DNA of 64,000 bases, taken from Segatella copri. GTDB lineage: Bacteria > Bacteroidota > Bacteroidia > Bacteroidales > Bacteroidaceae. Position 1 is the stretch's first letter, and each line of letters opens with the position of its first letter. Positions 4,990-30,434 of the stretch are shown piece by piece. The DNA is taken from contig NZ_CP042464.1 of the NCBI RefSeq assembly GCF_015074785.1, forward strand, positions 3,101,001 to 3,165,000. The letters run 5' to 3'. Position numbers and translations under genes: made by a program. A model generated the notes under the pieces. It did not search any database, had not been told where the DNA came from, and saw nothing but the letters and a program-made list of their open reading frames with translations.

Positions 4990-7629
4990 ATGGACATAGA
5001 CAAAAATAGAAGAATCGGTCTTACCGATGAACAAGTTAAACAGAGTAGGGAACAGCATGGCAAGAACGTGCTCACCCCTCCTCAACGTACTTCATTATGG
5101 AAACTGTATTTGGATAAATATCGCGACCCGATTATCCAGATACTTCTTGTGGCGGCTTTCGTATCCCTCATCCTTGCTTTTATCGAAAAGAATTTCATGG
5201 AGACCATCGGTATCTTCGTGGCTGTTTTCCTTGCTACTACCGTGGGCTTCTACTTTGAGCGCGATGCTGCTAAGAAGTTTAATCTGCTTACGGCGCTCAG
5301 CGAAGAGCAGCCGGTTAAGGTGCGCCGCAATGGTAAGGTGATGGAGATTCCGCGCCATGATGTGGTGGTGGGAGATGTAGTGCTCGTGGAAGTGGGCGAC
5401 GAGGTGCCTGCCGATGGCGAACTCATCGTCTGCAACGACCTGCAGATTAATGAATCTACCCTTACGGGCGAACCCGTTGCCGAGAAATCTCTGGAAGGCG
5501 GTGGCGATGGAGCCTATCCTCGCAACGTCATCCTCCGTTCTACCATGGTGATGAATGGCAGGGGCGAGTTCGTGGTTACTGCCGTGGGCGATGCTACCGA
5601 GATTGGTAAGGTGGCGAAGAAATCTACCGAACAGACTTCGGTGGAGACACCGCTTCACATGCAGCTCGATAAGTTGGCTAAGATGATTTCCAAGGTGGGC
5701 TCCGTAGTATCTGTGGCAGCCTTCTTCATCTTCCTGATTCACGATATCCTCACCAACCCGGCATGGGGCGGCAAGGATTATTTTTATATGGCAGAAATCG
5801 TGCTGAAATACTTCATGATGGCTGTTACCCTGATTGTGATGGCGGTGCCGGAGGGATTGCCGATGGCGATTACCCTTTCTCTGGCGCTCAATATGCGAAG
5901 AATGCTGAAGTCGAACAATCTGGTGCGCAAGCTTCATGCCTGCGAAACCATGGGCGCCGTTACCGTGATCTGTACCGATAAGACCGGTACGCTTACCCAG
6001 AACAAGATGCAGGTGAGTGCTCTGGAACTCAAGCAGGGCGATGAGGCGCTGCTTGATACTGCCATCGCCCTCAACTCTACAGCCGAGTTGAATGACGGCA
6101 AACCTATCGGAAACCCTACCGAGTCGGCTCTCCTGCTCTGGCTCGATGCCCAGGGCAAGGATTATGAAGAACTCCGCAAGCAGGTGAACGTGCTCAAGCA
6201 GTTGCCTTTCTCTACCGAGAGAAAGATGATGGCAACCTTGGCAGAAGTTGATGGCGAGACCTATCTCTTCGTGAAGGGTGCGCCTGAAATCGTGATGAAG
6301 AAATGCATCATCGAAGATAGAATGCTGAGACAGTCAGCCGAAGAACTCGATGAGTGGCAGCATAAGGCAATGAGAACCCTGGCGTTCGCCTATAAGAAGA
6401 TAGAAGCTTCTATCATGAGAACATCCAGAACCTCTACTGCCGAAGTGGTAGCACTTCTTGATGCCAACGACCTTCAGTTGCAGGCCATTGCAGCCATTGC
6501 CGATCCTATCCGTCCGGATGTTCCTGCTGCCGTGCAGGAGTGCCGCCATGCGGGTATCGAGGTGAAGGTGGTTACGGGTGATACGGCTGCCACCGCCTTG
6601 GAGATAGGCAAGCAGATAGGTGTCTTCGAAGATGAACCTGAGAATATCGGAGCAGATGGCTCTCTGACTTCGCTCGAACAGCAGATGATTACGGGTGAAC
6701 AGTGGGAGGCTCTTTCTGACGAAGAGGCTTACGAACGGGCGAAGGATATCCGAGTGATGAGCCGTGCCCGTCCTACAGATAAGCAGCGACTGGTGGCGAT
6801 GCTCCAGAAGCGTGGCGAGGTGGTTGCCGTAACAGGTGATGGTACCAACGATGCTCCGGCACTTCACTATGCTCACGTGGGCTTGTCGCTGGGGTCGGGA
6901 ACTTCCGTGGCTAAGGAGGCTTCGGATATGACCCTGCTCGATGATTCCTTCAAGTCTATCGCCAACGCCGTGATGTGGGGACGCTCGCTCTATCGCAACC
7001 TGCAGCGCTTCCTCTTCTTCCAGTTGGTAGTAAACGTGGCAGCCCTCTTGCTGGTGCTTGGCGGATCTGTCATCGGAACTGAAATGCCGTTGACGGTAAC
7101 CCAGATTCTTTGGGTGAACCTTATCATGGATACCTTCGCAGCCCTGGCACTTGCCTTATTGCCTCCATCTCATGAGGTGATGAAGGATAAACCACGCAAG
7201 GCATCCGATTTCATCATCAACAAGAGCATCGGTTTCGGCATTCTGTTCTGCGGCATCGTCTTCTTCCTCGTGATGTTTGCCCTACTGGTTTACTGCGAGC
7301 GCAGAGGCAAGGGTGGAGTAGATGTGCATGAACTGACCATGTTCTTCACCACCTTCGTGATGATTCAGTTCTGGAACCTCTTCAATGCCAAGGCGCTGAT
7401 GAGTCATCACACCGCTTTCCGCCATTTCCTGAAGGATAAGGGAATGATTCTGGTGCTTGTACTGGTATTGGTGGGTCAGTGGATTATCGTAACCTTTGGT
7501 GGCGAAATGTTCCGCACCACACCATTGTCGCTCCACGAGTGGCTGCTCATCATCGGCTCAACATCCGTTGTACTTTGGGCGGGCGAGCTGTGGAGAACTT
7601 TTAAGAGAATGATAGCAAAGAGAAGATAA
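4990..7629 (+). CDS. Calcium-translocating P-type ATPase (PMCA type)
   Basis: Cytoplasmic-membrane P2-type ATPase predicted to export Ca2+. Visible features are an N-terminal cation-ATPase domain (TDEQVKQSREQHGKNVL), the actuator loop TLTGEPVAEKS, the M4 ion site VMAVPEGLPMAITL, the phosphorylation site CDKTGTLTQNKM written here as TDKTGTLTQN, the nucleotide-binding KGAPE, the hinge TGDGTNDAPAL and a C-terminal membrane block containing NLIMDTFAALALA. The TGES motif reads TGEP here. The ATG at 4990 is chosen: the frame opens at a GTG at 4933, but those 19 codons lie almost on the transcription start set by TATCTTTGC at 4913-4921. The gene is followed 39 nt later by ribF in the same direction. 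Confidence 0.88.
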   Translation: MDIDKNRRIGLTDEQVKQSREQHGKNVLTPPQRTSLWKLYLDKYRDPIIQILLVAAFVSLILAFIEKNFMETIGIFVAVFLATTVGFYFERDAAKKFNLLTALSEEQPVKVRRNGKVMEIPRHDVVVGDVVLVEVGDEVPADGELIVCNDLQINESTLTGEPVAEKSLEGGGDGAYPRNVILRSTMVMNGRGEFVVTAVGDATEIGKVAKKSTEQTSVETPLHMQLDKLAKMISKVGSVVSVAAFFIFLIHDILTNPAWGGKDYFYMAEIVLKYFMMAVTLIVMAVPEGLPMAITLSLALNMRRMLKSNNLVRKLHACETMGAVTVICTDKTGTLTQNKMQVSALELKQGDEALLDTAIALNSTAELNDGKPIGNPTESALLLWLDAQGKDYEELRKQVNVLKQLPFSTERKMMATLAEVDGETYLFVKGAPEIVMKKCIIEDRMLRQSAEELDEWQHKAMRTLAFAYKKIEASIMRTSRTSTAEVVALLDANDLQLQAIAAIADPIRPDVPAAVQECRHAGIEVKVVTGDTAATALEIGKQIGVFEDEPENIGADGSLTSLEQQMITGEQWEALSDEEAYERAKDIRVMSRARPTDKQRLVAMLQKRGEVVAVTGDGTNDAPALHYAHVGLSLGSGTSVAKEASDMTLLDDSFKSIANAVMWGRSLYRNLQRFLFFQLVVNVAALLLVLGGSVIGTEMPLTVTQILWVNLIMDTFAALALALLPPSHEVMKDKPRKASDFIINKSIGFGILFCGIVFFLVMFALLVYCERRGKGGVDVHELTMFFTTFVMIQFWNLFNAKALMSHHTAFRHFLKDKGMILVLVLVLVGQWIIVTFGGEMFRTTPLSLHEWLLIIGSTSVVLWAGELWRTFKRMIAKRR

Positions 7630-8658: not shown

Positions 8659-9492
8659 ATGGCAAAGATTAATTTAAAGAGAGGTTTGACGGATATCGTC
8701 CTCTACATGATTATATTTATAGTAGTACAGATTATCGTGATGTATGCTGGCGCAGGAATCTGGGCGGGCATTAAGGGCGAAGGTTACCAGGCAACGCTCC
8801 TGGCTATCAGTTCGGGCAGCAATCCTATCCTGATGGCGCTTACCTCAGCGTTCAGCAACGTTATCACCCTCGTCATCTTCCTGAAGACGAAGTGGACACC
8901 GCTGACCCGCGATTATCTGCTTTCCAAGCCTTGGGGCACGCTTCTCTGGGTGGCATTGTTCTCCCTGGGAACCATCATCCCCCTGTCGTTCCTCTATGAG
9001 CAGCTGGGCATCGAGATGGATGAGAATACCCAGCAGATATTCACCTCGCTGATGAAGGAGCCTTGGGGCTATGTGGCAGTCGGCATCCTGGCGCCTCTTG
9101 CCGAAGAGGTAGTATTCCGTGGAGCCGTTCTCCGAACTCTGCTGGGTCTTATGAGCAAGAAGAACCATTGGGTAGCCATCATGATTTCGGCTGCCATCTT
9201 CGGTCTGGCTCACGCCAATGTTGCGCAGTTTGTCAATGCCCTCCTGCTGGGCTTACTCCTGGGTTGGATGTATTATCGCACCAAGAGTCTTGTTCCGGGC
9301 ATCCTGCTCCACTGGGTGAACAATACGATGGCGTATGTACTTGCCAATATCATGCCTCAGAGCGATGGCAAACTCATCGACCTCTTCCATGGCGATGAGA
9401 AAACCATGTATTATGCCGTAGGCTTCTCTCTCTGCATCATGATTCCAAGCTTTATACAGCTGATTATCAGATTAAAGAAGGTGAAGGCTTAA
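8659..9492 (+). CDS. CPBP family intramembrane metalloprotease
   Basis: A polytopic membrane protein of the CAAX protease/bacteriocin-processing (Abi) family. The catalytic motifs are clear: EEVVFRGAVL (double Glu plus Arg, motif 1), FGLAHAN (motif 2 His) and LLHWVNNTMAY (motif 3 with the Asn/His site). At least seven hydrophobic segments are visible, the first being residues 11-32. Relatives cleave prenylated proteins or membrane peptides, and some confer immunity to bacteriocins. The bacterial substrate is unknown here. It follows ribF and is closed by the terminator at 9510-9540. Confidence 0.85.
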   Translation: MAKINLKRGLTDIVLYMIIFIVVQIIVMYAGAGIWAGIKGEGYQATLLAISSGSNPILMALTSAFSNVITLVIFLKTKWTPLTRDYLLSKPWGTLLWVALFSLGTIIPLSFLYEQLGIEMDENTQQIFTSLMKEPWGYVAVGILAPLAEEVVFRGAVLRTLLGLMSKKNHWVAIMISAAIFGLAHANVAQFVNALLLGLLLGWMYYRTKSLVPGILLHWVNNTMAYVLANIMPQSDGKLIDLFHGDEKTMYYAVGFSLCIMIPSFIQLIIRLKKVKA

Positions 9493-10658: not shown

Positions 10659-11075
10659 AGCATGAAATGACAAGTAATGGCAAGGATTTCTATCCGGCAA
10701 GCGATGTATTCCCAAGAAGAAAACGATGACTTCTGCACCGAGAAACGGTGAGTTCTGGAGGAGAAAACTATGAGTTATTTTTATTAACATAAAGCTCTAA
10801 AGCAGTCAAAGGAGAATAAGAGAGGTTGGAACGTAAACAGTTGGGAATGAGTAGATTTGCACAAAGTTGCCAAATCGGCATAAAGCAAGCGAGTGAGGAA
10901 TATTGAAGTAGTTCAGTTACTAAATCGTGAGCCACAGTTACCTATGCAAAGCAGGTAACAATGCGGAAAGGCAACTTTGTGCATCAACGGATTTTATTGC
11001 GCTGATTCTCAATGTTTTGCGTATCAAGGAACGCTTACAAAATGATTATATTTGCACACTCAAAATGTAAGCGTT
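10659..11075 (+). promoter_or_regulatory. Left end region of mobile element A: recombination and promoter sites
   Basis: No gene is seen. The stretch holds a perfect 14-bp inverted repeat TGCACAAAGTTGCC (10858-10871) and its complement (10970-10983), direct CAGTTAC repeats at 10913-10919 and 10935-10941, an inverted GGTAAC at 10954-10959, and the -7 element TATATTTGC (11047-11055) before the integrase ATG. The CAGTTAC block is also found before the integrase of element B. Arm-type integrase binding sites are the likeliest role, by analogy with IntDOT-type att sites. Confidence 0.5.
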
Positions 11076-12116
11076 ATGAAAATCGAAAAATTCAAGGTGT
11101 TGCTCTACCTAAAAAAGAGCGGAATGGACAAGAATGGAAAAGCTCCCATCATGGGACGCATCACGGTGAACAGGACTATGACGCAGTTCTCCTGCAAGTT
11201 GTCTTGCACTCCATCGCTTTGGAATCCTCGTGCCAGCCGATTGGAGGGCAAGAGCAAGGAAGCCGTGGAGACCAACAAGGACATCGAGCAGTTGTTGCTT
11301 TCCATCCAAAAGGCTTTCGATGTGCTTGTGGAAAAGAGAACGGACTTCGAGGCTAAGGATGTCAAGGAGGCTTTGCAGGGCAGCGTCAAGACACAGAACA
11401 CCCTTCTCTCCTTCGTGGACGAGCATATCAGTGAACTCAGCACCCATGAGGGCATCGATATGTCGAAGAGCAGTGTCTGGACTTACAGAAAGATTCGCAA
11501 GAATCTCGCTGAGTTCATCGGGGAGAAGTATAGGTTGACTGATTTGGCTTTCGGACAGCTGACCGAGCCTTTCATCAGTGACTTTCACCATTACCTGCTT
11601 GACGAGAAAGGCTTTTCATCAGGAACCATCACCATCTATGTGTCGCTCTTCAAGAAGATGTGCCGCATTGCCTTTGAGCGAGGCTTGTGCAAGAACCTGC
11701 TGTTCGCCCATTATCGGGTTGGCACTCCAAAGGTTACGACACCCAAGGCTCTCAGCATGTCTGATTTCATAAAAATCCGTGATGTGGAACTGCCCGAAGA
11801 CAAGCCGAGACTATCCGTTAGCCGTGACCTGTTTCTTTTCGCCTGCTATGCAGGAACAGCCTTCATAGACACCGTTTCCATCACGAAAGCCAATGTCAAG
11901 GTGTTGGAGGATGGTGACAAATGGCTCATCTATAACCGCAAGAAGACCGGAACACTTGCCAGGGTGAAACTCCTGCCCGAGGCGTTGGAGCTGATGGCGA
12001 AATACGAGGACGGGGCAAGAGATACCCTTTTCCCATTGCTGAGCACGAATCGTGTTCGTATCGATCTCATCACCATCTGCAAGTTGGCGGAAACGAGCAA
12101 GACCTATTCCTACCAT
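11076..12116 (+). pseudogene. Tyrosine recombinase of element A, 5' part (split by element B)
   Basis: Residues 1-347 of a Bacteroidetes tyrosine recombinase (starts MKIEKFKVLLYLKKSG; N-terminal arm-binding domain, core-binding domain about 110-210, catalytic domain from about 225). The sequence runs in frame to ...SKTYSYH, whose His codon (12114-12116) is the His of the HxxR catalytic box. After it the frame continues into unrelated sequence to a stop at 12252-12254, adding about 45 foreign residues. The missing part (VSRHSFASLI... with the rest of HxxR, LGH and the Tyr) is intact at 26608-26799. The rejoined protein would be 410 aa, matching the 409-aa paralogue at 25085-26314. As it stands it lacks catalytic residues and cannot be active. 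ATG 11076 is chosen because family members begin MK(I/V)EKFKVLL. Confidence 0.9.
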
Positions 12117-12224
12117 TCGGGGAGTCACAGTAAATTCTTCTATTTATTGAATATCAGCGAGTTGAGTATTTTAAAGAATGTGACTGCTAACGATTTAGAA
12201 ACGAGCTATATTCTTTTTCTTTCA

Positions 12225-12582
12225 CAACTATGCAATATACAAAGAACGCTTTGATTTCGAGTGCAAAGTTAAATCTAATTTCTGAAAAACAACATTTTAT
12301 GCTGTGATTTTACAAAATATTAAGATTAGTCTTTGCAAAGGTAAAAGAGTAGTTACCAACAGTAATTTTCATGTAACGTCATTTTAAGAGTATGGCAAAA
12401 AGAACATATTCATAAACGCATATATGTATCTTGCCATATTGGGAAATCAATTGCTTAGTTCCATTTTTGCAGATTATATTTCTATTTTGTCTAAATTACG
12501 ACGGAATACAGCAGATATTCAAGGGATTTGGATGGATTATCAAAATAAAACGTTATTTTTGTAGTATAAAAACGATAAAAAT
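12225..12582. promoter_or_regulatory. Non-coding region: leftward promoter/leader copy, then cat promoter
   Basis: At about 12228-12275 the minus strand has TAACTTTGC followed by a leader that resembles the ISAzo13-like leader at 14.26 kb (shared GCGTTCTTTG.ATATTGCA block). This is an outward promoter reading into the split integrase antisense. The rest is AT-rich without clear genes. Near 12553-12561 the plus strand has TATTTTTG-type -7 sequence, about 25-30 nt upstream of the cat ATG at 12583. Confidence 0.4.
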
Positions 12583-13218
12583 ATGAAGTTAAGCACTATG
12601 AGAGAAATAAATCCCAAAGAAACCACCCGTGCATATGCATTTGAGCTTTGGATGAAAGCCCCGATGCCAATGGTTACGTTTTTCAAGATTTTGGATGTCA
12701 GTCGTCTTGTTAAAATCAGCAAAAAGTCAGGTATGAAATTCAATATGCTGATGTGCTGGTGCATCGGCAAAGCGGCAAGCAGTATCAAGGAATTTTATAT
12801 GCTGCCTGTCGGAGACAAATTGATGCAATATGATGCTATTGCGGTTAATACCATTGTTATGAACAAGGACAATGAGGTCAGTTCATGTGATGTGCCGTTT
12901 TCTGATGATTTGCAGCTATTCAATGAAGATTATCTGAAATTGACAATGGAAGTAGCCCGAAGCTGTGAGAACCACGATTTGACAGAAAGCATGGTAATAG
13001 GGACTTCCGCACTGGCCCAATATGAAATTGACGGTGCGGTAGGTATGTACAGCGGTATCTTCAACAATCCGTTTATGATATGGGGCAAGTACCATAAAGG
13101 TTTCTTCAGAACGACACTAACGGTTTCATTCCAATTCCACCACACTCAAATGGACGGGGCACATGCTGCAAAGTTCCTGGATCGCCTGCAGCAGGAAATC
13201 AATAAATTACTTGTGTAG
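12583..13218 (+). CDS. Chloramphenicol acetyltransferase, CatA-like
   Basis: A 211-aa trimeric-CAT family protein that would O-acetylate chloramphenicol with acetyl-CoA. The catalytic signature HHxxxDG is present as [15 protein letters not shown] near the C-terminus (His at about 186-187). N-terminal [21 protein letters not shown] and the [10 protein letters not shown] region also match the family. The length is close to the usual 210-220 aa. Whether it still prefers chloramphenicol cannot be read from sequence, since some CatA-like proteins are divergent. It is accessory cargo next to a broken GNAT gene, an IS fragment and the RiPP operon. It starts 8 nt after an AAAACGATA leader, with no strong Shine-Dalgarno, as usual in Bacteroidetes. 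Confidence 0.85.
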
Positions 13219-13220
13219 CG

Positions 13221-13416
13221 ATGAATATGGAAAAACAAAGATTGATACTTCGTTCCTGGACAGAACACGATGCAGAGTCTCTTTATAATTATGCCAAAGT
13301 TCCAGCTATCGGCCCTATTGCAGGATGGCCTCCTCATACATCTGTGGAAAACAAAAACAAAAAAATATACAGGAAAAATTAGACAAAAATCCGGATTATG
13401 TAATGTGTAAAAAATA
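13221..13416 (+). pseudogene. GNAT N-acetyltransferase fragment, frameshifted and truncated
   Basis: It begins 3 nt after the cat stop with [20 protein letters not shown] and continues [21 protein letters not shown], the N-terminal third of a RimJ-like GNAT acetyltransferase. The frame then breaks in an A-rich run (about 13350-13362). In another frame the sequence resumes as [14 protein letters not shown] before a TAA, which fits the next GNAT segment. The acetyl-CoA-binding region is absent, probably lost when the IS-like segment at 13.4-14.3 kb arrived. It is not functional. Confidence 0.6.
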
Positions 13417-13436
13417 ACTTCCGCAGTTTTCTGCGG

Positions 13437-14147
13437 TTAAGAGCAACATTTGACGAGATAGTTCCATTTGGAGAGCTCATCATCAAAAATGATACGTTTG
13501 CTCTTGTTTGATTCGTAAGATTCTTCAATGGGTCTTTTCGTTTCATACGTTCTTTGATTTATTGTAGCGATAATGGAGAGTCCTTTCTTTGTGACGGTTG
13601 CCTCTGCTCTCGTTCTTGCATTCTCAATGGACAAGAGTGGTGCGCCACTCCAACTTCTTGAAATTGGTCCAAACATGCAATGCTCTATAGGATTGTATTT
13701 GGAGCAATATGGAGGGTAATGTACCATGATGATATTTACCCCTATGGTTGAAGCCAACTTCATCAAAGCTTGTTTTACTATATGGTGCGAACATGCATTA
13801 GAACCGCCACCATCACAGAGAATACAGATTGTGTGGGCATTTGGGTATTTCCATTGTAGGAATTGTTGCCAAATATGAATGAAATTGTCACAGACAAACT
13901 CAGCGGTGTCATGGCTAACCCCCAATGTTAAATAGCCAGTATTAGCTCCAACATCATAGATGCCATAAGGGACTATGATTCCATCCGAAAAGCTCTTGAA
14001 ATCATGGTCATAAGCCTTAGGCTTCCCCTTGCAAGAGACTGTGCCTTGACGTTTGAAGTTGCCAATCATCTCCTTCTTCTTTGTGTCAATACTGAATATT
14101 GGGATGCCATAAGTTTCACACTCCGAACGAATTTCTTGAACGGTCAT
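13437..14147 (-). CDS. ISAzo13-like DDE transposase, probably incomplete
   Basis: The protein carries the ISAzo13 hallmarks: IPIFSIDTKKKEMIGNF at the start of the RNase H fold (first catalytic Asp), ICILCDGGGSNACSHH around the second Asp, and HYPPYCSKYNPIEH with the catalytic Glu. Full members are about 400 aa, while this frame has 236, so the N-terminal DNA-binding half is missing. The frame stays open upstream of the ATG for about 18 codons (including QSKSNLERV) to a TAG, inside a leader that also occurs alone at 39 kb. No clear terminal inverted repeats were found. It is either a truncated IS or an unusual short transposase; activity is doubtful. Confidence 0.7.
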   Translation of the reverse strand: MTVQEIRSECETYGIPIFSIDTKKKEMIGNFKRQGTVSCKGKPKAYDHDFKSFSDGIIVPYGIYDVGANTGYLTLGVSHDTAEFVCDNFIHIWQQFLQWKYPNAHTICILCDGGGSNACSHHIVKQALMKLASTIGVNIIMVHYPPYCSKYNPIEHCMFGPISRSWSGAPLLSIENARTRAEATVTKKGLSIIATINQRTYETKRPIEESYESNKSKRIIFDDELSKWNYLVKCCS

Positions 14148-14422: not shown

Positions 14423-14899
14423 CTATCCGAACACCTGCTGCCATAACGTTTTATTGCTGACAATGATTCTGACATCAGCTTTCATATACTTTTGCAGTAT
14501 AGGAGTATTTTGTCCCTGTGTGCTCACTGTGGCTATAGCCATAAAATAGTTGCCATCTTCTCTATGTATGAGCTTGGCTTTATGGCTTGTGATGTCGCAG
14601 TTATAAGATGCATTATCGTTGCCCTCGAAAGATACATAAGCCGTCCTTGGCTCATCGAAAAGGTACAAATACTTATATGGCACAAACACTTGCACTGTTC
14701 TTTGATTGATGACCTCACCATTAGCATCTATGGATATAGGATAAGGTATCTTGTAGAAAGCAACTGCGAGGGCGAGGACTATGATCGTAATGATAACTGT
14801 CCCCAAACTGACGAGGCGAGGAGGAACTTTGCCTATCACGTTCCTCACCTTCTCGCTTCTCAACTCGATGTTATCTGATTCTTTTTCTTTCTGTTCCAT
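14423..14899 (-). CDS. Short HlyD-like membrane fusion protein of the RiPP exporter
   Basis: Predicted inner-membrane-anchored periplasmic adaptor for the C39 ABC exporter encoded 12 nt upstream. The N-terminus has ELRSEKVRNVIGKVPPRL, a pattern typical just before the single membrane helix of Bacteroidetes HlyD proteins, then a transmembrane segment at about residues 30-50. The C-terminus ends with MKADVRIIVSNKTLWQQVF, like the end of the HlyD beta-barrel. Normal HlyD/AcrA adaptors are about 400 aa; at 158 aa this one lacks room for the lipoyl domain and the long alpha-hairpin that reaches TolC. It is the last gene of the RiPP operon. It could be a natural mini-adaptor or an internally deleted gene. 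Confidence 0.65.
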   Translation of the reverse strand: MEQKEKESDNIELRSEKVRNVIGKVPPRLVSLGTVIITIIVLALAVAFYKIPYPISIDANGEVINQRTVQVFVPYKYLYLFDEPRTAYVSFEGNDNASYNCDITSHKAKLIHREDGNYFMAIATVSTQGQNTPILQKYMKADVRIIVSNKTLWQQVFG

Positions 14900-14911
14900 A
14901 TCAAACGCTTT

Positions 14912-17113
14912 TTAGTTTCCCAATTCCAACTGATTCTTCACAAGATTATAGTATGCCCCTCGCTTGGCGGTCAAAGACTCATGGTTGCCTATCTCAACCA
15001 CCTTTCCTTGGTCGATGACCACGATTTGGTCGGCATTCTTCACAGTGCTTAGGCGATGAGCCACAATCACAACCGTCTTTCCTTTGTAGAACTTATCCAA
15101 GTTCTCTACGATGCTTCTCTCATTGTTGGCATCGAGCGAGTTGGTCGCCTCGTCAAGGAAGATATAGTCTGGATTCTTATACACCGCCCTTGCTATCAAG
15201 ATACGCTGTTTCTGTCCTTGGCTCAGTCCCACGCCATCACGCCCAATCTTGGTGTTGAACTTCAGAGGCAAAGCCATCACGTAATCCTTGATACAAGCTA
15301 TCTCGGCTGCTTTCAACAACCGTTCCTTATCTATATCGCCATCATCAACAGCAATATTTCTTGCGATACTCTCCGAGAAGATAACACCATCCTGCATGAC
15401 AACACCACATTGTCTGCGCCACCACTTTTTGTTGAGTTTGTTGATGTCAGTATTTCCAATGTTGATTTTTCCCTCCAAGACAGGATAATAGCCTAGCATC
15501 AAACGAATGAGAGTGGTCTTTCCACTGCCAGATGCGCCAACGATGGCTGTAACTTTACCTTGCGGAATGTGAATGTTTACATCGTCTATGGTCTTGTGCA
15601 AAGCATGTGGGTCGTACTTGAACATTATGTTCTTGATGTCAATGCCCTCGCTCTTGTCCTCAATGGAAGTTAGCAAGCCTTCCTTTCCGTTCTCATCATC
15701 CATCTGGTGAATCTCATTGATACGCTCCAAACTAATCTTCACATCTTGCAGGGAATAAAAGAAATTCATCAGTTGCTCCACTGGTGAGTTGAGTTGTCCA
15801 ATGATGTATTGCACGGCAAGCATCATACCAAGTGTCATTTGCCCATGAATCACGGCGGTAGCTGCTACTACCGTAATGATAATGTTCTTCACCTCATTGA
15901 TGAAGATGCTTCCAGCCTCTTGTGTCTGTTGGAGTTTGAGCGATTTCATTTGCACGCCGAACAGATCAGCTTGCGTGTCCTCCCATTCCCATCTTCTGCG
16001 CTGCTCACAATCCTGCAACTTGATTTCCTGCATGGAAGTGATAAACTCATAAGTTTTGTTGTTGTTGATGGCTTGCTGCTCAAACAGTTCATAATCAAGC
16101 ACTTTTCTTCGTTTCAAGAACAAGGTCATCCATGCGCCATAGAGAACGCTTCCCAACAAGAAGATGGCAAACACCAACTTGTTGTAGAAGAAAAGCACTA
16201 CCGAGAATACCACGAAAGTAAGCATGGCAAAGGTGATGTTGAGCGTCTGCTGCGTAAGGAAGTTGTTCACACGGCTATGGTCGTTCATTCTCTGCATCAA
16301 GTCGCCCATGAGTTTCGTATCAAAGAAAGACATCGGCAACTTCAATAGCTTGATGAAGAAGTCGCTCACCAACGAGATGTTGATACGTAAGGAAATATGA
16401 AGTAACAACCACCTGCGGATAAAGTCGATTACCGTTCGGCTAATGGTAAGCATCAACTGTCCCAATAGTATAAGCCAAACAAAGCCAATGTCTTGATTTT
16501 TGATACCAACATCCACGATGGATTGGGTAAGGAATGGCAAGACAAGTTGCAAGAGGCTACCAACCACCAAGCCCAAGATGATTTGCCCGAAGTACTTGCG
16601 GTATTTCTTTACATACCCAAAGAGAAATCGGAAAGATCGCTTTTCCTTGATGTTCTCTTCACCCTCCATCTTATAAGCGAAGAAAGCAGGAGTAATTTCT
16701 AAGAACATGGCAATGCCCTTGTCCTCTCCATTAGATTTCGTGCTTACCCAATGTTGTTTGAACTCTTCCAAACTGTAAGTCACCAATCCCTTCCCTGGAT
16801 CAGCGACATAGAACTTCTTTCCTTTCTTGACCTTATATAAGACAACAAAGTGATTTTGGTTCCAATGAAGAATGCAAGGCAAAGGGGCTTCACCTAGCAC
16901 TATAGTTGTAGCTCTAGCGCATGTAGTATGCAAGCCAAGTGTATTTGCTGCCTCATTGATACCTAACAGAGAGACACCTTCCGTTGTAGCAAAACAAAGT
17001 TTCGTCAGAGAATCCAAAGAGTATTCTCTGCCGAAATATTTGCATACCATCTGCAAACAAGCTATTCCGCATTGCATAGAATCATGCTGGTAAATTATAG
17101 GAAAACGTACCAT
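14912..17113 (-). CDS. Peptidase C39-containing ABC transporter (bacteriocin-type exporter)
   Basis: Three-domain exporter that cleaves a leader peptide and pumps the product across the inner membrane. Residues 1-130 are a C39 Cys protease: QHDSMQCGIACLQMV with catalytic Cys15, NHFVVLY with His88 and ADPGKG with Asp105. Residues about 165-450 form the six-helix exporter domain. The ATPase has Walker A GASGSGKT from about 526, signature LSQGQ near 630, Walker B YIFLDEA and the switch His in AHRLS. Length of 733 aa is standard. It is encoded 26 nt after the outer-membrane gene in the RiPP operon, so its natural substrate is most likely the 55-aa precursor at 20797. All catalytic residues are present. 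Confidence 0.93.
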   Translation of the reverse strand: MVRFPIIYQHDSMQCGIACLQMVCKYFGREYSLDSLTKLCFATTEGVSLLGINEAANTLGLHTTCARATTIVLGEAPLPCILHWNQNHFVVLYKVKKGKKFYVADPGKGLVTYSLEEFKQHWVSTKSNGEDKGIAMFLEITPAFFAYKMEGEENIKEKRSFRFLFGYVKKYRKYFGQIILGLVVGSLLQLVLPFLTQSIVDVGIKNQDIGFVWLILLGQLMLTISRTVIDFIRRWLLLHISLRINISLVSDFFIKLLKLPMSFFDTKLMGDLMQRMNDHSRVNNFLTQQTLNITFAMLTFVVFSVVLFFYNKLVFAIFLLGSVLYGAWMTLFLKRRKVLDYELFEQQAINNNKTYEFITSMQEIKLQDCEQRRRWEWEDTQADLFGVQMKSLKLQQTQEAGSIFINEVKNIIITVVAATAVIHGQMTLGMMLAVQYIIGQLNSPVEQLMNFFYSLQDVKISLERINEIHQMDDENGKEGLLTSIEDKSEGIDIKNIMFKYDPHALHKTIDDVNIHIPQGKVTAIVGASGSGKTTLIRLMLGYYPVLEGKINIGNTDINKLNKKWWRRQCGVVMQDGVIFSESIARNIAVDDGDIDKERLLKAAEIACIKDYVMALPLKFNTKIGRDGVGLSQGQKQRILIARAVYKNPDYIFLDEATNSLDANNERSIVENLDKFYKGKTVVIVAHRLSTVKNADQIVVIDQGKVVEIGNHESLTAKRGAYYNLVKNQLELGN

Positions 17114-17139
17114 TCTTCGTATGACTTACTTTTAAACAT

Positions 17140-19239
17140 TTACAATCTATCCATTTCCTTTTTTCCTGCCCCTTTACCTTTATATTTTGCTTTAACTGTA
17201 TTAAACTTATATCTTACGATAAATTCCACTGCCCTTACACTCGCAGCCCTTTCAATATAGACATCATTCATTCCGCTGAAAATGGTAAAGGTATTTTTGC
17301 GGGCAGTATTAAAGATGTCATTTGCTGACAACTTGACATTCCATTTTTTAGATAAGTCCTTAGCCAAAGAAAGATTTATCTGTCCAACACTCCCCATCTT
17401 AATATTCTCACTATTTCCCTCACTACGCCAACTGTAATTTATTGTCGCCATATAGTTGTTATGGAATTTTAAAATATTATTGAACTTAACTACGACCAAA
17501 GGATTATCCACATGCTTTATATTTCCTCTGTAATCAATCTTGTAAAATTGAGAGACAACACCACATGCCAATACGGGATAATAGCATTTCCAAAGGAATC
17601 CGGGCATAAAAGAAGCCATAATCTGTAAGTTAGACAGACAGTTTCTAGAATTTTCCTTTCTGAGCAAGGCAATCGTCTTCGCATCATCATAATATGTATA
17701 TGATGTTATTATTTGGTTTCGTACCTTTTTATAATTAGCAGTTAATGCCAACCAGCGATACCTCAAATTCAAAGAGATGTTGTCGCTATAGGATGGTTGC
17801 AAATACGGATTTCCACTTTGATAGAGATATTTGTTAACATAGTGAACCGTGTTGCTCAACTGAGAGTACAATGGACGATAGCATTGCTTAGAATAGCTCA
17901 ACTGCACCATGGTTTTTCCAATGGGCAGAGACAATGAAGCTGTCGGGAAAAACTTATCATAAACATGTGACTGTTCGTGATTTTTTCTGCCACCTATAAA
18001 ATATTCACTGTTCACATGCTCATACCTACCACCGATACGGAATGTTACATTGCCTAGATGCTGCATAGTTTCAACGTAATATGCCATGTTCAGCTCCTGT
18101 ATTTTATTGTTCTCGCCTGCCATAATGCTATTTTCACTTTCTGAATTCTCCTCACGGCTACTATTGGTGAAATCTACTCCAAAGCTAAAATTACCTTTAA
18201 GAAATGGGTGTGACGCATATAATTCCGTTGCCATTAACCTAGCATGCCCAACATCTTTTATTCCGAAATTCTGATTGATGCCGGTTTGCTCTATAACGTT
18301 TTGATTTTCATGTGTTTTTTTCCACATTAAATCAAAAGTCATCTCTAAATTCCATTTTCCCCAAACCCCATGGCAATATCCATCTAACAAATGTTCCAAA
18401 TCTCTTAATTTGACATCCTTGTATGCGGAAGTCTCACTTTCAATTACATCATCAGAATATAATGATGACATAATGCTAGAATTGGTCTTTGTTGGAGCAT
18501 AAGATACTTGGTAAAATGCGCCAAATGAGAGTTTTGGAGACGAGGAAAAATCAAATCCCCATTTACCATCAATCAACTTTGAGTGCTGTGTCGATTTCAT
18601 AGTCGTATTCTGCTGATGATGTGACGAGAGCCATGAATTCTGAACATTTTTGCTAGAGTTCGTATCCTTGCCTTTCTCAAATCCAAACGTTCCAAAAACA
18701 TCAAACTTGTCTGCCCTATAGTTCAAGTCCAAATTGTCTTTGCCATACAGATAATTACGATAGCCAAAAGTAGCGATGTTATCAAAGGAGAAACCATCCC
18801 CAACCTTTTTAATGGTTGTTATCTTTATGATGGAACCTACGGTTGAAGCATAACGTGAACTTGGATTCGTTACAACAGTTATCTTATCTATTTGGTTAGC
18901 CTTCAATTGCTCAACTTCTATATTATTGCGGACAATATGTCCATTGATATAGAAGACTGGTTTTCCCTTGCCAAAAACTTCAATGGAACCATTATTATTC
19001 AGTACACCAGGCAACATACCCATAACATCTTTTGCAAAACCAAGTTTTTCCAAAACGGTACCTTTGACTTCTGTCACAAAGCCTTCGCTGTTCAACTTTG
19101 CCAAAGGGCGGGTTGCTCTAACAACAACCTCCCTTAATTGCAAAGTATCCTTTCCGAAATTTTGGTTAGCGATACCAGTCTGAGCTAGAACGATTTGTGT
19201 CCAGGCCAAATGAAATAAAAAAATAAAAAGTCTTCTCAT
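17140..19239 (-). CDS. Outer-membrane plug/beta-barrel protein (TonB-receptor-like) in RiPP operon
   Basis: A 699-aa protein with a Sec signal peptide (MRRLFIFLFHLAWTQIVLAQ) and a plug-like domain at about 30-135 (LREVVVRATRPLAKLNSEGF, MLPGVLNNNGSIEVFGKGKPVFYING, then ITVVTNPSSRYASTVGSIIKI). A long barrel follows, of the outer-membrane beta-barrel family usually coupled to TonB receptors. The Bacteroidetes carboxypeptidase-like N-terminal domain and a SusD partner are absent. It lies 20 nt after the maturase gene and 26 nt before the exporter gene. Inside a peptide operon it could let the peptide cross the outer membrane, take it up again, or serve immunity. The family is clear but its role here is inference. 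Confidence 0.8.
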   Translation of the reverse strand: MRRLFIFLFHLAWTQIVLAQTGIANQNFGKDTLQLREVVVRATRPLAKLNSEGFVTEVKGTVLEKLGFAKDVMGMLPGVLNNNGSIEVFGKGKPVFYINGHIVRNNIEVEQLKANQIDKITVVTNPSSRYASTVGSIIKITTIKKVGDGFSFDNIATFGYRNYLYGKDNLDLNYRADKFDVFGTFGFEKGKDTNSSKNVQNSWLSSHHQQNTTMKSTQHSKLIDGKWGFDFSSSPKLSFGAFYQVSYAPTKTNSSIMSSLYSDDVIESETSAYKDVKLRDLEHLLDGYCHGVWGKWNLEMTFDLMWKKTHENQNVIEQTGINQNFGIKDVGHARLMATELYASHPFLKGNFSFGVDFTNSSREENSESENSIMAGENNKIQELNMAYYVETMQHLGNVTFRIGGRYEHVNSEYFIGGRKNHEQSHVYDKFFPTASLSLPIGKTMVQLSYSKQCYRPLYSQLSNTVHYVNKYLYQSGNPYLQPSYSDNISLNLRYRWLALTANYKKVRNQIITSYTYYDDAKTIALLRKENSRNCLSNLQIMASFMPGFLWKCYYPVLACGVVSQFYKIDYRGNIKHVDNPLVVVKFNNILKFHNNYMATINYSWRSEGNSENIKMGSVGQINLSLAKDLSKKWNVKLSANDIFNTARKNTFTIFSGMNDVYIERAASVRAVEFIVRYKFNTVKAKYKGKGAGKKEMDRL

Positions 19240-19259
19240 TTTTATTAATTAATTCGTCC

Positions 19260-20732
19260 TTACTTTTGGTTATTATAAGGACATTTTACATCTGGGTAAT
19301 ACCATTTTTGTGAGCCATATTTTCGTATTATATCTCTATAGCATACTTGTCTAAATGTTCTACACTCTTTGAACTTGCCACAGCTGTGACACAAAGAATC
19401 TTCAGGGAAATCCTCTTGTTTAATCTCATAAAGAGACTTAGCTTCTTTTGAATTCCAAATTTCCAAGATGCTATTGGATTTAACATTTCCAATAATAAAA
19501 CGCTTATTCCAATATAGCTGTTCACACATAGTAACTTGTCCATCTGGTAAGATGTACAATGAAGAGAACAAACCGCTACAGAATGCTCTGTTGAAAAAAT
19601 GAGATTCCGCTTGTTTTAATTTATCGATAGTGTTATTTACAATTTGAATCTGTTCTAACTTAGGATAATGAATAGACATACCACTGCTGTCAGAAAGGTC
19701 TTTCAGATAATTCACGATGTTATTGTACGAAAGAGAATCTATCTCAATATTACTATAATCTGTTCTTGGATATAAAGTTTCTTCTCCTTTTACTACATGC
19801 CAATCCTCTATATTTTTTAAATTCTTTAGAACATTATATATAGAGCGCATATCAGCTATATCTTTAGTGTATTTTGTCAAAACAGAATGAACCTTTACAA
19901 GTATGCCATATTTTTCTAGTAACATCAAGCTCTTCAACATTTCGGCAACATACCCCTTTCTAACATTTATGGATTCTATTAGATGCTCTTCAATACATGA
20001 ATCTAGAGATATTTGAATATCACGAACCTTAAGTTTTGCCAAGAACTGCACATCATTTTCTTGCAATGGCATTTTTGTAGACAGATAAGGATTATAACCA
20101 TATCTTCTTAACTCAGCAAGGACATCTCTCCAATATTTGTACAAGAAAAATTCTCCTCCTATGACATCAAAGGTATTTACATTCAACTTATAAGCTTCAC
20201 GGATGAGCTCTTTTATTCGTTCTAATGGAATTGTACATTTTGCAACATGCGATTTATCTTGATAGCAATAGATACAATTTGTTACACAAATATTGTTAAA
20301 CATCAATGTAATTGTAGATGGAGTCAAATGTCTCTTCATTCTCAAATCTATTTGGTCATATTTGAATAGGTTTGGAGAATAACGTTTAATTTGGCTAGGT
20401 GATTGCATTGACACTATAGTGTATGGTGGAAAAACAGAATTTCCCTTTTTCCCACTCAGTATCACTTGTTTAGGATTATCCACTAATGAATTAATAAAAT
20501 TAAGAACCAATTCTTTTGGAACTGACAAATATGATGCTGCCTCATTAACACATTCATTGATTTCTCTACCATCAACAAAACACAGAATCATTGCATAAAT
20601 AGGGTGAATAATATCTGTGAAAGAATCATCTTGTCCAATAAGCAAATTTCTACCGACCAAAGAAGCTAATATGAGAGTTCTTCCCTCATCTGGTTTCAAT
20701 ACTAGATTTTCATTAAAAAGAATATATTTCAT
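19260..20732 (-). CDS. Radical SAM/SPASM peptide maturase
   Basis: Predicted to modify the Cys-rich precursor encoded 64 nt upstream. ATG 20732 gives 490 aa; the upstream TTG lies inside a palindrome and is unlikely. Residues 1-95 look like a PqqD-type recognition domain (LVLKPDEGRTLILASL, later VDGREINECVNEAASYL). The radical SAM cluster is C149xxxC153xxC156 within NNICVTNCIYCYQDK, followed by FDVIGGEFFLY. The C-terminal SPASM region has CSGLFSSLYILPDGQVTMCEQ, then LCHSCGKFKECRTFRQVC and a final KCPYN, enough Cys for two auxiliary Fe-S clusters. SPASM maturases of this layout form thioether, C-C or epimerised residues. The Cys-rich substrate favours thioether (sacti/ranthipeptide) chemistry, but this is inference. 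I cannot assign it to a named family. Confidence 0.88.
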   Translation of the reverse strand: MKYILFNENLVLKPDEGRTLILASLVGRNLLIGQDDSFTDIIHPIYAMILCFVDGREINECVNEAASYLSVPKELVLNFINSLVDNPKQVILSGKKGNSVFPPYTIVSMQSPSQIKRYSPNLFKYDQIDLRMKRHLTPSTITLMFNNICVTNCIYCYQDKSHVAKCTIPLERIKELIREAYKLNVNTFDVIGGEFFLYKYWRDVLAELRRYGYNPYLSTKMPLQENDVQFLAKLKVRDIQISLDSCIEEHLIESINVRKGYVAEMLKSLMLLEKYGILVKVHSVLTKYTKDIADMRSIYNVLKNLKNIEDWHVVKGEETLYPRTDYSNIEIDSLSYNNIVNYLKDLSDSSGMSIHYPKLEQIQIVNNTIDKLKQAESHFFNRAFCSGLFSSLYILPDGQVTMCEQLYWNKRFIIGNVKSNSILEIWNSKEAKSLYEIKQEDFPEDSLCHSCGKFKECRTFRQVCYRDIIRKYGSQKWYYPDVKCPYNNQK

Positions 20733-20756
20733 AAGTTTACGAGTCTTAAAAATAAT

Positions 20757-20782
20757 CAAGATGGTAGAATTCTACCATCTTG
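20757..20782 (-). terminator. Perfect 26-nt palindrome between precursor and maturase genes
   Basis: The 26 bases are identical to their reverse complement (half-site CAAGATGGTAGAA), with an EcoRI-like centre. On the minus strand the palindrome starts 14 nt after the precursor stop codon and is followed by ATTATTTTTAAG. This position and T-rich tail fit a leaky terminator or mRNA-stabilising hairpin that would give much more precursor than enzyme. A protein-binding operator is the alternative. Confidence 0.6.
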
Positions 20783-20796
20783 ACAATTAGTTTAAA

Positions 20797-20964
20797 TTAC
20801 AAAACATCATTCACACAAACTGCACAAGCACTAGCGCAGCCTATACAAGAATCACATAAAGAACATTCTTGCTGTAAATGATCTTGCACAACAGCACCAG
20901 CCTTTACCTCAAACATTTGAGATTCAGACAACAACTCCTTTGCTTCTAAAGAATACTTTTCCAT
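20797..20964 (-). CDS. Cys-rich RiPP precursor peptide (55 aa)
   Basis: A short gene not obvious by length alone. It encodes MEKYSLEAKELLSESQMF, then EVKAGAVVQDHLQQ, then a C-terminal core with six Cys spaced C-x2-C-x2-C-x2-C-x3-C-x2-C (residues 34, 37, 40, 43, 47, 50), ending VNDVL. The first half is charged and helical, like C39-processed leaders (LSESQMFEVKAGA resembles LSExEMxxVxGG). Cleavage would be after the AG or GA at 22-24. It sits first in the operon, just before the SPASM maturase and upstream of the C39 exporter. The promoter has TACTTTTGC at 21022-21030. A Cys-rich metal-binding peptide is a weaker alternative. No homologue is recognised. Confidence 0.85.
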   Translation of the reverse strand: MEKYSLEAKELLSESQMFEVKAGAVVQDHLQQECSLCDSCIGCASACAVCVNDVL

Positions 20965-21260
20965 ACTAAAATATTTTCTGTTATGCGCCTTTAAAGTAGG
21001 GCGGTTTCACTATTGTTATCCGCAAAAGTAACTCTATTAATTGAAAAAGAGAAATTTTCAGTCGCGAAATTCTGGAAATTAACTTTATTTATACAATACA
21101 TACATCTATTTGTCGTTTAATAACAAATAAACGTGTCTTTTTGTTGACAAAACACCATGAATACCTGTCAATTTTTCACAATATCGATGAATTTAGTATT
21201 TTTTTACATTGTTAATTGTAATGTTTTTTATTCTGTTTATAAAATTACAAAAGTCTTATT
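20965..21260 (-). promoter_or_regulatory. AT-rich promoter region of the RiPP operon
   Basis: The minus strand has the -7 element TACTTTTGC (21022-21030), about 58 nt before the precursor ATG. The rest is very AT-rich with no supported gene, though a small plus-strand frame (21157-21477) opens here by chance. The RiPP DNA ends where homology to the mobilization module begins, at about 21261. Confidence 0.55.
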
Positions 21261-21465
21261 TGTTGTGTCCACAGACCATCTCGCCGTTCAAGGCAGACTC
21301 ACGGATGTACTCCGCCAACTTGCGGTTGGCTTTCCTCGCCCTCAGTCTCAAAGCCTCGTAGCTTGGCTTCGAGAACTTCACCGTGACAGACTTCGACAGC
21401 TTGCGAACCCTGCCCGTAGGCGGTCTTCCGCCCTTTCTCTTGTCTTGTTCCTGTATGTTTGTCAT
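21256..21465 (-). pseudogene. Truncated mobilization protein (MobC/BmgB-like), element B copy
   Basis: The first 66 or so residues (MTNIQEQDKRKGGRPPTGRV..., ...YIRESALNGEMV) match the intact 137-140-aa protein at 30426-30848, and the frame then ends GHNK at the junction with RiPP DNA. The kept part is the ribbon-helix-helix-like DNA-binding end; the C-terminal half (relaxosome partner) is lost. It marks the breakpoint where the relaxase module of element B was replaced by the RiPP cargo. Confidence 0.8.
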
Positions 21466-26604: not shown

Positions 26605-26799
26605 CATGTATCACGACACTCGTTCGCCAGCCTCATTACGCTGGAGGCAGGTGTGCCGATGGAGACCATCTGCAAGATGCTCGGTCACAAGGATGTGAAG
26701 ATGACGCAGCGGTATGCGAGAGTAACCCAAAAGAAGCTGTTTGAGGACATGGACAAGTTCATCGCTGCAACCGAGAAGGACTTTATTCTCGCATTATGA
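26605..26799 (+). pseudogene. Tyrosine recombinase of element A, 3' part
   Basis: This encodes the missing C-terminal 63 residues of the gene begun at 11076: VSRHSFASLITLEAGVPMET, MLGHKDVKMTQRYARV, KKLFEDMDKF. It contains the Arg of HxxR, the LGH motif and the nucleophile Tyr, and it is collinear with residues 350-409 of integrase 1 of element B. A GTG at 26602 could start a 65-aa peptide, but a stand-alone catalytic tail would not be functional. Joining 12116 to 26608 restores one uninterrupted frame. Confidence 0.9.
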
Positions 26800-26863
26800 A
26801 CAAGGCTTTCAACTTTTCTTTTTACAGTTTCAACTACATTATTATATTATAAGGACAACAACT

Positions 26864-28075
26864 ATGAGCAGAAGTACATTTTCAATTTTGCCTTACATCA
26901 ACAGACAGAAGGTGAAGGCAGACGGAACAGCCAACATACTTTGCCGCATCACCGTTGACGGCAAAAGTGCAGCCATTTCCACAGGCATATCCTGTACACC
27001 ACAGGAGTGGAACGCCAAGAAGGGAGAGGTACGGAATGCAAGGGACAACGGACGATTGGCAAGTTTCCTTGCTGAGGTCAAGGATAAATACAACTTACTT
27101 CTTACCACCAATGGCATCATCACCGTGGAAATGCTGAAGGCTGTGTTGAAGGACAAGGACACGACAGGAAGGTTCTTGCTGAACTTTGGTGATACCATCG
27201 TGGAATGGTATCGAACCTCAAAAGCCAGACAAACCTTTCTGCACAAGCGAACATGGCAGAAGAACCTGAGAGCCTTTGTCCATTCGTTGGATAAGGACGA
27301 CATCGCCTTTGAGGACATAGACGAGAATTTCGGGGAGGAATACAAGCTATTCCTGAAACGAGACCAGGGACGCATCGACAGCTACGTGAACCATTGCCTT
27401 CTCTGGCTGAACATGTTGATGTACAAGGCAGTGGACAGGAGCATTATCCGCTTCAATCCCATAGCCAAGATAGGGTATGAGAAGAAGGCAGCCCCGAAGA
27501 TGACCCATATCAGCAAGGCAGACTTCATCAAGATGCTCTCTACCCCGATGGCTGACGAGCGAACGGAGCTTGCACGCAGATGTTTCATTTTTGCCTCGCT
27601 CACCTCCTTATCCTATATAGATGTAAAGAAACTGTACCCTCACCATATCAGTGAGAACTCCGATGGTAGGAAGTTCATCCGCAAGGAAAGAGAGAAGACA
27701 GGCGTGGAGTTCTTCGTGCCGCTCCATCCGATAGCCGAGAAGATTCTTTCGCTCTACAATACCACGGACGACAGCAAGCCTGTTTTTCCACTGGGTGAGA
27801 AGAAAGACATCTATCTTGATGTGCATACCCTTGGAATGGTGCTTGGCATAAGTAATAAGTTGGGATTCCACGCCAGCCGCCATACATTCGGAGTCTTGAT
27901 GCTCAACGAGGACATTCCCATCGGCAGCATAGCCAAGATGATGGGACACGCAGACATTACAAGCACACAGGTCTATGCGCAGGTGACGGAGCAGAAGATT
28001 TCAAATGACATGGATAAGCTTATTGCCAAGCGAGAAAGGAACAGATTATCGAACGAAAAAACTATTGGAAAATGA
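26864..28075 (+). CDS. Tyrosine recombinase, integrase 2 of element A
   Basis: A 403-aa protein from ATG 26864 (MSRSTFSILPYINRQKVKADG); the open frame upstream is foreign. Catalytic motifs: FASLTSLSYIDVKKL at the Arg I position (no Arg), GFHASRHTFGVLML (HxxR), MMGHADITSTQVYAQV (GH and Tyr). It is paralogous to the integrase at 23830-25053 but clearly diverged, unlike the adjacent accessory genes. It lies 64 nt after the split integrase tail. Its stop overlaps the RhuM-like start by 4 bp. Confidence 0.9.
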   Translation: MSRSTFSILPYINRQKVKADGTANILCRITVDGKSAAISTGISCTPQEWNAKKGEVRNARDNGRLASFLAEVKDKYNLLLTTNGIITVEMLKAVLKDKDTTGRFLLNFGDTIVEWYRTSKARQTFLHKRTWQKNLRAFVHSLDKDDIAFEDIDENFGEEYKLFLKRDQGRIDSYVNHCLLWLNMLMYKAVDRSIIRFNPIAKIGYEKKAAPKMTHISKADFIKMLSTPMADERTELARRCFIFASLTSLSYIDVKKLYPHHISENSDGRKFIRKEREKTGVEFFVPLHPIAEKILSLYNTTDDSKPVFPLGEKKDIYLDVHTLGMVLGISNKLGFHASRHTFGVLMLNEDIPIGSIAKMMGHADITSTQVYAQVTEQKISNDMDKLIAKRERNRLSNEKTIGK

Positions 28076-28434
28076 ACAGAGGAGTTATAACTATCAGCGA
28101 GAGCGGAACGGTATCCATGCCGACCGATACTGTATGGATGACCATGCAGGAGATTGCCGACATGTATAATGTATTCGGCTGCTATGTGCGCAAGGCTGTC
28201 AAGGCTATATTCAAGGACGGCATTCTGAAAGAGCAGGGTGTACGCCGTCATGTCAGAAAGAACGACCGCATCAGCTATGATGTGTATAGCCTTGAACTCG
28301 TCATTGCGGTAGCCTTCCGTATTGACAGCATTGAGAGCAGAGCCTTTCGGGAGTTCATCATGCAGTCCGTCATCGGCAGACAGACAAGCCGCACTAAACT
28401 GGTCTGTATCTTTACAGAGAATGCAATGGCATAG
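28072..28434 (+). CDS. RhuM-like small DNA-binding protein, right copy
   Basis: The 120-aa protein is identical to the left-arm product (23471-23833). It is coupled to integrase 2 of element A through an ATGA overlap. Its TAG stop is followed by a stretch without genes up to the convergent HTH gene at 28667. Confidence 0.7.
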   Translation: MNRGVITISESGTVSMPTDTVWMTMQEIADMYNVFGCYVRKAVKAIFKDGILKEQGVRRHVRKNDRISYDVYSLELVIAVAFRIDSIESRAFREFIMQSVIGRQTSRTKLVCIFTENAMA

Positions 28435-28666
28435 AACAGCCATAAAGCAACGTTCCTTGGAGGCTTTGCGCCTCCAGCCACTTGGGCGAACCACCGCAGT
28501 GTGTTTTAGCATGGTATTAGATTTATATAGGTAACACAAATGATACCCGGCAAACACGAACAACTCGGTATAGCCAATAAAACGAGGCGACAACCTATAA
28601 CAGCCACGCTCGGTAAGTTATACGTTGTCGCCTTGTTCATTTCACACACTCATCAAGGACATTCTC

Positions 28667-28975
28667 CTACACACCTTTCATTCTGTACGCCTCACGATAG
28701 TTAGCCATCAGAATCTTCTGAATATCGGACTCGCGGTAGAGTATCTTTCCGCCAAGCTGGATATACGGGATGACACCGTTGTTTCGGTAGTCCTGCAGGG
28801 TTCTTCGGCTCAGTTGCAGTCTGGCACAAAGCTCCTTGTCCGTCATGAAGCGCTCACCGTCAAGCATGGGGCGGTAGTTCATCACGGCACGTTCAAAGTT
28901 GTCAACCATTCGGTTGAGGTGGTTCACGATGTGGTTCATCCACTCGCTGTTTCTTGTCATTACTTCATTGCTCAT
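28667..28975 (-). CDS. Helix-turn-helix excisionase-like protein, right copy 2
   Basis: A 102-aa protein with the same Xis-type domain as 22924-23232; it ends in Val instead of Leu. It is downstream of the other HTH gene on the minus strand and convergent with the RhuM-like gene. Confidence 0.77.
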   Translation of the reverse strand: MSNEVMTRNSEWMNHIVNHLNRMVDNFERAVMNYRPMLDGERFMTDKELCARLQLSRRTLQDYRNNGVIPYIQLGGKILYRESDIQKILMANYREAYRMKGV

Positions 28976-29057
28976 AGTTGTCTCGTTTTATTGTTGATAC
29001 TTACGTTACTCGGTTTACTTGCTGCTTTGGATTAAGTGGCTGTTGTATATTGACAGC

Positions 29058-30250: not shown

Positions 30251-30434
30251 GAATTAAGGTCTGCGACCTTGGACGTGGATAGATGAAAGGCTGTAGTTCC
30301 AACTAACGTGTTCTGAGAGGGAGCGAGGTTATGTTTTGGGAACCCCAAAACGCCTCGCTCCACCATGAGGGCGGAGAAATTTTGCTCCCGACGGTCGCAA
30401 AAAGTGAGTGTACCAACTGTAAACAGTGTATCGA

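Follow-up and report, generated by a model that had tools for sequence, protein, structure and literature searches.

Apparent exchange of peptide, maturase and outer-membrane barrel beside a constant C39 exporter in a Segatella copri operon

How does a peptide that is pumped across the inner membrane of a Bacteroidales bacterium pass the outer membrane, and what is the role of an outer-membrane barrel encoded within its export operon? These questions are raised by a five-gene locus of Segatella copri (assembly GCF_015074785.1, contig NZ_CP042464.1), which occupies positions 14423 to 20964 on the minus strand of a stretch of 64,000 nucleotides (contig positions 3,101,001 to 3,165,000), referred to here as the window. 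In the direction of transcription it encodes a six-cysteine precursor, a radical SAM/SPASM maturase, a barrel protein, a C39 peptidase/ABC exporter and a short HlyD-like protein (the adaptor), with intergenic gaps of 64, 20, 26 and 12 nt. A first-pass annotation, made from the sequence alone, had read these genes as an operon by which a Bacteroidales-type host makes a ribosomally synthesized and post-translationally modified peptide (RiPP), the peptide having a leader, being modified by a SPASM maturase and leaving through a C39 exporter; it took the product for a candidate antimicrobial or signalling peptide with thioether bridges. A check of the open reading frames (ORFs) found the five tandem genes where it had placed them, its reading as a RiPP operon was upheld, and we regard such an operon as almost certain.

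Probable exchange of the precursor, maturase and barrel

DNA comparison revealed a block specific to the window, from 17089 to 21261, lying between a constant mob flank and a constant exporter. In the nearest genome compared (G001), the element occurs in two copies, of which one (locus L036) was 98.5% identical to the window over 22928-21261 and 91% over 17098-14147, and the other (L037) was 97.8% identical over 22339-21297 and 84% over 17089-14721. Between these constant parts neither copy had any DNA match to the window, and their precursor, maturase and barrel proteins were distant from those of the window or unrelated to them. A second genome (G043) displayed the same pattern, also in two copies (L158 and L159). 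The DNA of exporter and adaptor was matched in 57 of 398 genomes of the genus (E 1e-50). Six units (L036, L156, L157, L158, L160 and L176) carried exporters 93-96% identical to that of the window, and their barrels had 7-30% identity to the window barrel when scaled by coverage; a SPASM-type maturase was found in four of the six, at a coverage-scaled identity of 0-26%.

On these comparisons it is very probable that the exporter and short adaptor stay in place and that precursor, enzyme or enzymes and barrel are exchanged as a block. The barrel appears to follow the peptide in this exchange rather than to remain with the exporter, and a single lineage of the element appears to carry different peptides and chemistries. 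The separation of exchanged from constant parts is unusually clean. On the exporter side the junction falls at the codons for QHDSMQCG, the active-site motif of the C39 domain, which makes roughly the first eight exporter residues part of the cassette. Towards the mob flank, matching ends within the gene for MobA, at base 21261, 21263, 21297 or 21448.

The same arrangement could in principle arise if no cassette were exchanged and gene conversion with a single donor had replaced the exporter genes of separate RiPP clusters. The identity of the exporter DNA (84-92%) is lower than that of the mob flank (about 98%), and these two constant parts therefore differ in history; in addition, within the short stretches that were compared, L156, L157, L160 and L176 have the exporter but no mob flank. 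Against this, four loci other than the window (L036, L037, L158 and L159) preserve both flanks around an unrelated middle, and we consider gene conversion improbable. In another locus (L167), two 3' ends of the adaptor gene stand alone at 5366-5617 and 11604-11843, about 6 kb apart and with 90-91% DNA identity, the exporter being absent; these remnants suggest repeated recombination.

The cassettes beside this type of exporter differ in the enzymes that they encode. The L158 copy contains a pair of the grasp-with-spasm graspetide type above both cut-offs (TIGR04192, 273 against 230 bits; TIGR04193, 281 against 175). In L177, an enzyme resembling GG-samocin maturases, with a score of 255 where the cut-off is 300, is accompanied by a pseudo-radical-SAM-like partner; other likenesses, also below cut-off, were to PapB (L156 and L176) and to CefB (L037). 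A C39-VKOR-thioredoxin protein precedes the same type of exporter in L161 (1399-2910) and L164 (1945-3447), where the chemistry is perhaps disulfide-forming rather than radical. L162 holds two complete tandem units, one with a radical SAM protein and two DUF6734 proteins, the other with a radical SAM protein and a barrel. Precursor-like ORFs were seen in cassettes including those of L036, L037, L156, L158, L160, L176 and L177; none was recognized in L157. When L158 is turned to the exporter strand, a second short ORF with a GG leader and a core consisting mostly of threonine lies at 9223-9393, followed by a barrel of its own. L176 and L177 (MT836930.1 and MT836455.1) are human faecal scaffolds deposited under the name Bacteriophage sp., with the same exporter (94.8% and 85.5% protein identity to that of the window, respectively) and other cassettes; either virus preparations that contained host DNA or particle-borne transfer may account for them.

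The precursor and the chemistry of its product

The precursor (55 aa; 20797..20964, minus strand) has cysteines at residues 34, 37, 40, 43, 47 and 50, exactly where they had first been reported. An AG at residues 22-23 ends the leader, of the kind that C39 peptidases cut, and leaves a core of 32 aa with the pattern CxxCxxCxxCxxxCxxC. The peptide matched no family in Pfam or NCBIfam at E 0.1, the GG-Bacteroidales precursor model TIGR04149 included. A protein database held 14 homologues at E 2e-8 or better, with all six cysteines of the block in nine, five in one and a truncated or divergent block in four. In Segatella albensis (L003), an orthologue with identical cysteine spacing adjoins a maturase 65% identical to that of the window; the two precursors are alike in leader and cysteine spacing and differ at most other core residues. 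Because of these 14 homologues and the S. albensis orthologue beside a related maturase, the precursor is more than a chance ORF. It had been foreseen that precursor homologues should recur beside the maturase, and of 17 maturase loci 15 indeed had, upstream of the maturase, an ORF with a GG/AG-type leader and at least two cysteines; the other two were L027, truncated at the end of its contig, and L030, in which none was seen.

The maturase (490 aa; 19260..20732, minus strand; PF04055 and PF13186) has its motif CVTNCIYC at residues 149-156 and seven cysteines in the SPASM region, at 385, 403, 448, 451, 457, 464 and 484. The ATG at 20732 was preferred as its start to the listed TTG at 20759 because close relatives start there. 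An NCBIfam scan gave 38 matches, and the best 25, the last at E 5e-4, were considered. Among these 25, the generic SPASM domain model TIGR04085 alone was above its cut-off, and no specific cut-off was reached. No specific family could be assigned: the GG-samocin model TIGR04148 and the models for SCIFF and PapB were not among these best matches, nor did any sulfatase-activating or other non-peptide family reach its cut-off there. The top match, AlbA, scored 54.8 bits against a cut-off of 850, and SkfB scored 33 bits against 300. SkfB was also the nearest solved chain to the maturase profile (E 1.6e-13). Judged by these models, the enzyme appears to lie outside the curated families. It is also rare, being present in 4 of 398 genomes of the genus (E 1e-60) and 10 of 393 genomes of the order (E 1e-90). 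Among 7996 candidates scored, 353 were homologues at E 1e-3 or better, and its closest database cluster has 490 members.

A thioether (carbon-sulfur) chemistry is plausible for the predicted product, and on balance we favour a product of the thioether type. The peptide might instead not be cross-linked, the maturase performing some other chemistry and the six cysteines binding metal or forming disulfides. CxxC spacing is typical of metal sites, no cut-off of a known thioether family was reached among the best 25 matches, and the spacing of the cysteines is what the cores of the window and S. albensis mainly keep. The top NCBIfam match and the nearest solved relative are, on the other hand, both of the sactipeptide type, although the matches are weak, and the seven cysteines of the SPASM region are as in sactipeptide-type maturases; a peptide without cross-links seems rather unlikely to us.

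The short adaptor, the barrel and a possible route outward

The exporter (733 aa; 14912..17113, minus strand; PF03412, PF00664 and PF00005) has all of the catalytic residues previously ascribed to it, as the motifs QHDSMQCG, HFVVL and ADPG were found together with Walker A, signature, Walker B and H-loop. The adaptor (158 aa; 14423..14899, minus strand), noted before as a short HlyD-like gene, is real and is best described as a hairpin-less membrane fusion protein (MFP). It retains a transmembrane helix and a beta-barrel domain, and its predicted model matches the beta-barrel domain of MacA. Profile alignment of 30 short adaptors against 74 full ones located the loss in the lipoyl and alpha-hairpin parts, which are the parts of an MFP that meet TolC. 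The shortness of the adaptor is thus a definite state, the loss of its lipoyl and hairpin part. The short form is common (7338 sequences belong to a database cluster 96% identical to the window protein, whereas the closest maturase cluster has 490), though it has no match to a Pfam or NCBIfam model at E 0.1.

The barrel protein (699 aa; 17140..19239, minus strand) matched the SusC-related family PF14905 (E 2.2e-48), and homologues of SusC were its nearest solved structures by profile. No plug model matched at E 0.1, and the profile aligns SusC 5t3r over residues 1-235 of the query. A TonB-box-like LREVVV lies near residue 35, and an N-terminal domain present in the S. albensis homologue is missing. 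An outer-membrane protein within an export operon had initially been called unusual; it proved to be recurrent: counting the window, 12 of the 18 maturase loci have a barrel homologue, directly after the maturase in 10 and after one or two small ORFs in L027 and L030. Those without one were L005 (at a contig end), L025, L031, L032, L034 and the second maturase of L026. Likewise, of 27 units with exporters 76-96% identical, 21 have a barrel at most 1200 nt upstream of that gene, whatever their chemistry; within this range none was present in one unit of L162 or in L166, L171, L172, L174 and L175.

The relation between adaptor length and barrel was surveyed across C39 exporters. A search at E 1e-130 located these at 148 places, spread over 115 of the 296 genomes, at most three being scored per genome. 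The sample was drawn from 120 of these places, to which 12 previously collected loci and the window itself were added; 15 were removed for want of sufficient flank, and 114 exporters were counted. Full-length adaptors occurred at 70 loci (barrel in 5), adaptors of 300-399 aa at 2 (barrel in 0), short adaptors at 25 (barrel in 18) and stubs at 4 (barrel in 3), and no adaptor was found at 13 (barrel in 8). Exceptions were inspected individually; at L126, a long downstream ORF reads like a putative TonB-dependent receptor. Truncated adaptors are mostly accompanied by a barrel and full-length adaptors mostly not, largely within one exporter clade, and the association is not significant after correction for the tree. 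Fisher's test of full against short, stub or no adaptor gave p 5e-12, a value that overstates the link because most rows with a barrel belong to that one clade.

The overall explanation towards which we lean, with limited confidence, places the RiPP operon on an integrative mobile element carried by gut bacteria of the Prevotella/Segatella type, with release of the peptide into the periplasm and exit by the barrel of the cassette. The SPASM maturase would modify the six-cysteine core, most likely by carbon-sulfur cross-links, and the C39 domain would remove the leader at AG. The ABC exporter would then pump the core across the inner membrane with an MFP that has no lipoyl and hairpin parts, so that the core is freed into the periplasm, from which the cassette's own SusC-related barrel would take it outward, probably driven by TonB. 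Periplasmic release followed by exit through the barrel is proposed because a hairpin-less adaptor should not reach TolC, and the exit role is favoured because it is the barrel, and not the exporter, that goes with the peptide. We hold the barrel tentatively to be the outer-membrane exit for the peptide. More tentatively still, the C39 exporter and hairpin-less adaptor (to the periplasm) and a peptide-matched, TonB-driven barrel (outward) might together form a TolC-free, two-step secretion route, into which unrelated chemistries are plugged. If true, one such platform, on a mobile element with an exchangeable block, would serve several SPASM types, grasp-with-spasm and C39-VKOR-thioredoxin systems.

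Several observations weigh against exit through the barrel. TonB-dependent transporters known so far mostly import. A strict TonB-box-like motif was present in only 16 of 70 barrels, and the structure model of the barrel (pLDDT, the predicted local distance difference test, of 38.7) was too poor for use. Over 26 units, no deep correlation was found between barrel and maturase (partial -0.002, p 0.49) or between barrel and exporter (0.10, p 0.21). In the exporter tree, one clade of 25 rows comprises 23 with a barrel and 0 with a full adaptor, the barrel rows outside it being L131, L134, L139, L148, L153 and L155 and five with full adaptors; tree-independent pairs gave 2.9 the same way, 0.3 opposite and 6.8 without difference (median p 0.25). 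A barrel stands beside five full-length adaptors, and within the counted range it is missing from seven short ones. At L144, the short adaptor is found together with a putative TolC-like ORF, an assignment judged without a family search.

The main and serious rival to an exit role is uptake, in which the barrel would be a TonB-dependent receptor taking up the mature peptide as a metal carrier, a pheromone or a means of self-recognition, the peptide leaving by some other way. The SusC-related sequence and the TonB-box-like LREVVV agree with this, and exchange of the barrel along with the peptide would be expected because a receptor must fit its ligand. Import is, moreover, the established role of the family, as the available text of PMC6434023 also states. 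Uptake would, however, leave the outer-membrane exit unexplained, given an adaptor without the hairpin that meets TolC, and no uptake, signalling or regulator gene was recognized in the window cassette; we judge uptake rather unlikely. Exchange with the peptide would also fit a barrel that takes no part in transport and protects the producer, by immunity or as a decoy, and no other immunity candidate was recognized among the five genes of the window. Protection would leave the short adaptor unexplained, no case of it is known to us, and it seems to us a very doubtful alternative to a barrel that serves as the exit.

The mobile element and comparison with known systems

The operon had been described as carried on a mobilizable element, a term that calls for correction: integrases are present, but MobA is truncated and has no relaxase beside it. 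The MobA of the window (NikA-like, PF21983; 21256..21465, minus strand) has 69 aa, against 137 aa in L036, the copy of which carries a relaxase (PF03432). A DUF3408 protein (PF11888; 21650..22132, minus strand) forms the constant flank of the element and is 97.5-99.4% identical in L036, L037, L158 and L159. Two tyrosine integrases (PF00589; 23830-25053 and 25085-26314, minus strand) presumably belong, by their position, to the same element as the operon. Adjoining the element, a second set on the plus strand (26741-32577) includes an integrase at 26741 (PF00589) and a relaxase at 30845-31795 (PF03432), and might serve the RiPP element in trans. On the other side of the operon (11052-14147) lie an integrase-like ORF at 11052 without a catalytic-domain match, a CatA-like acetyltransferase at 12583 (NF040637, above cut-off) and a piece of an ISAzo13 transposase at 13437.

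The window maturase shares the radical SAM and SPASM architecture of the sactipeptide maturases AlbA and SkfB, whose systems differ from that of the window in host, precursor and export genes. Grasp-with-spasm graspetide systems (TIGR04192/TIGR04193) use the same exporter in the L158 copy, whereas the window cassette has no ATP-grasp gene. Compared to MFPs of the MacA/HlyD type, the window adaptor is without their lipoyl and alpha-hairpin parts. In the literature searched, we found no prior description of the hairpin-less adaptor or of the cassette exchange. The association of a barrel with such operons has already been partly noticed in print: the available text of PMC8939145 lists PF14905 among the genes near graspetide loci and predicts that proteins related to TonB-dependent receptors mediate export. 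A precedent for outward transport from the periplasm by a TonB-dependent transporter is Oar of Myxococcus xanthus, which, in the available text of PMC6434023, is needed for secretion of PopC; its cargo is a protein and no C39 exporter is involved, and it is likened to the window system by function.

The nearest parallel is offered by the Bacteroidales RiPP clusters BGC6-9 (Fernandez-Cantos et al. 2023, PMC10352776). In the available parts of that paper, these clusters, like the window, have a C39 exporter, an outer-membrane protein gene and GG-type precursors, with radical SAM enzymes in BGC6-8; unlike the window, they have YcaO with radical SAM in BGC6-8 and LanM in BGC9, and neither a cassette exchange nor a hairpin-less adaptor is described there. 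The same parts report an exporter and an outer-membrane protein without an MFP, and their authors ask whether transport is distinct. Exchange of cassettes amounts to a natural experiment in which the parts of export that are matched to the peptide can be told from the generic ones. PMC10352776 leaves the question of how Bacteroidales RiPPs exported by C39 proteins pass the outer membrane where no adaptor is found, and to this the short adaptor and the barrel offer a testable answer.

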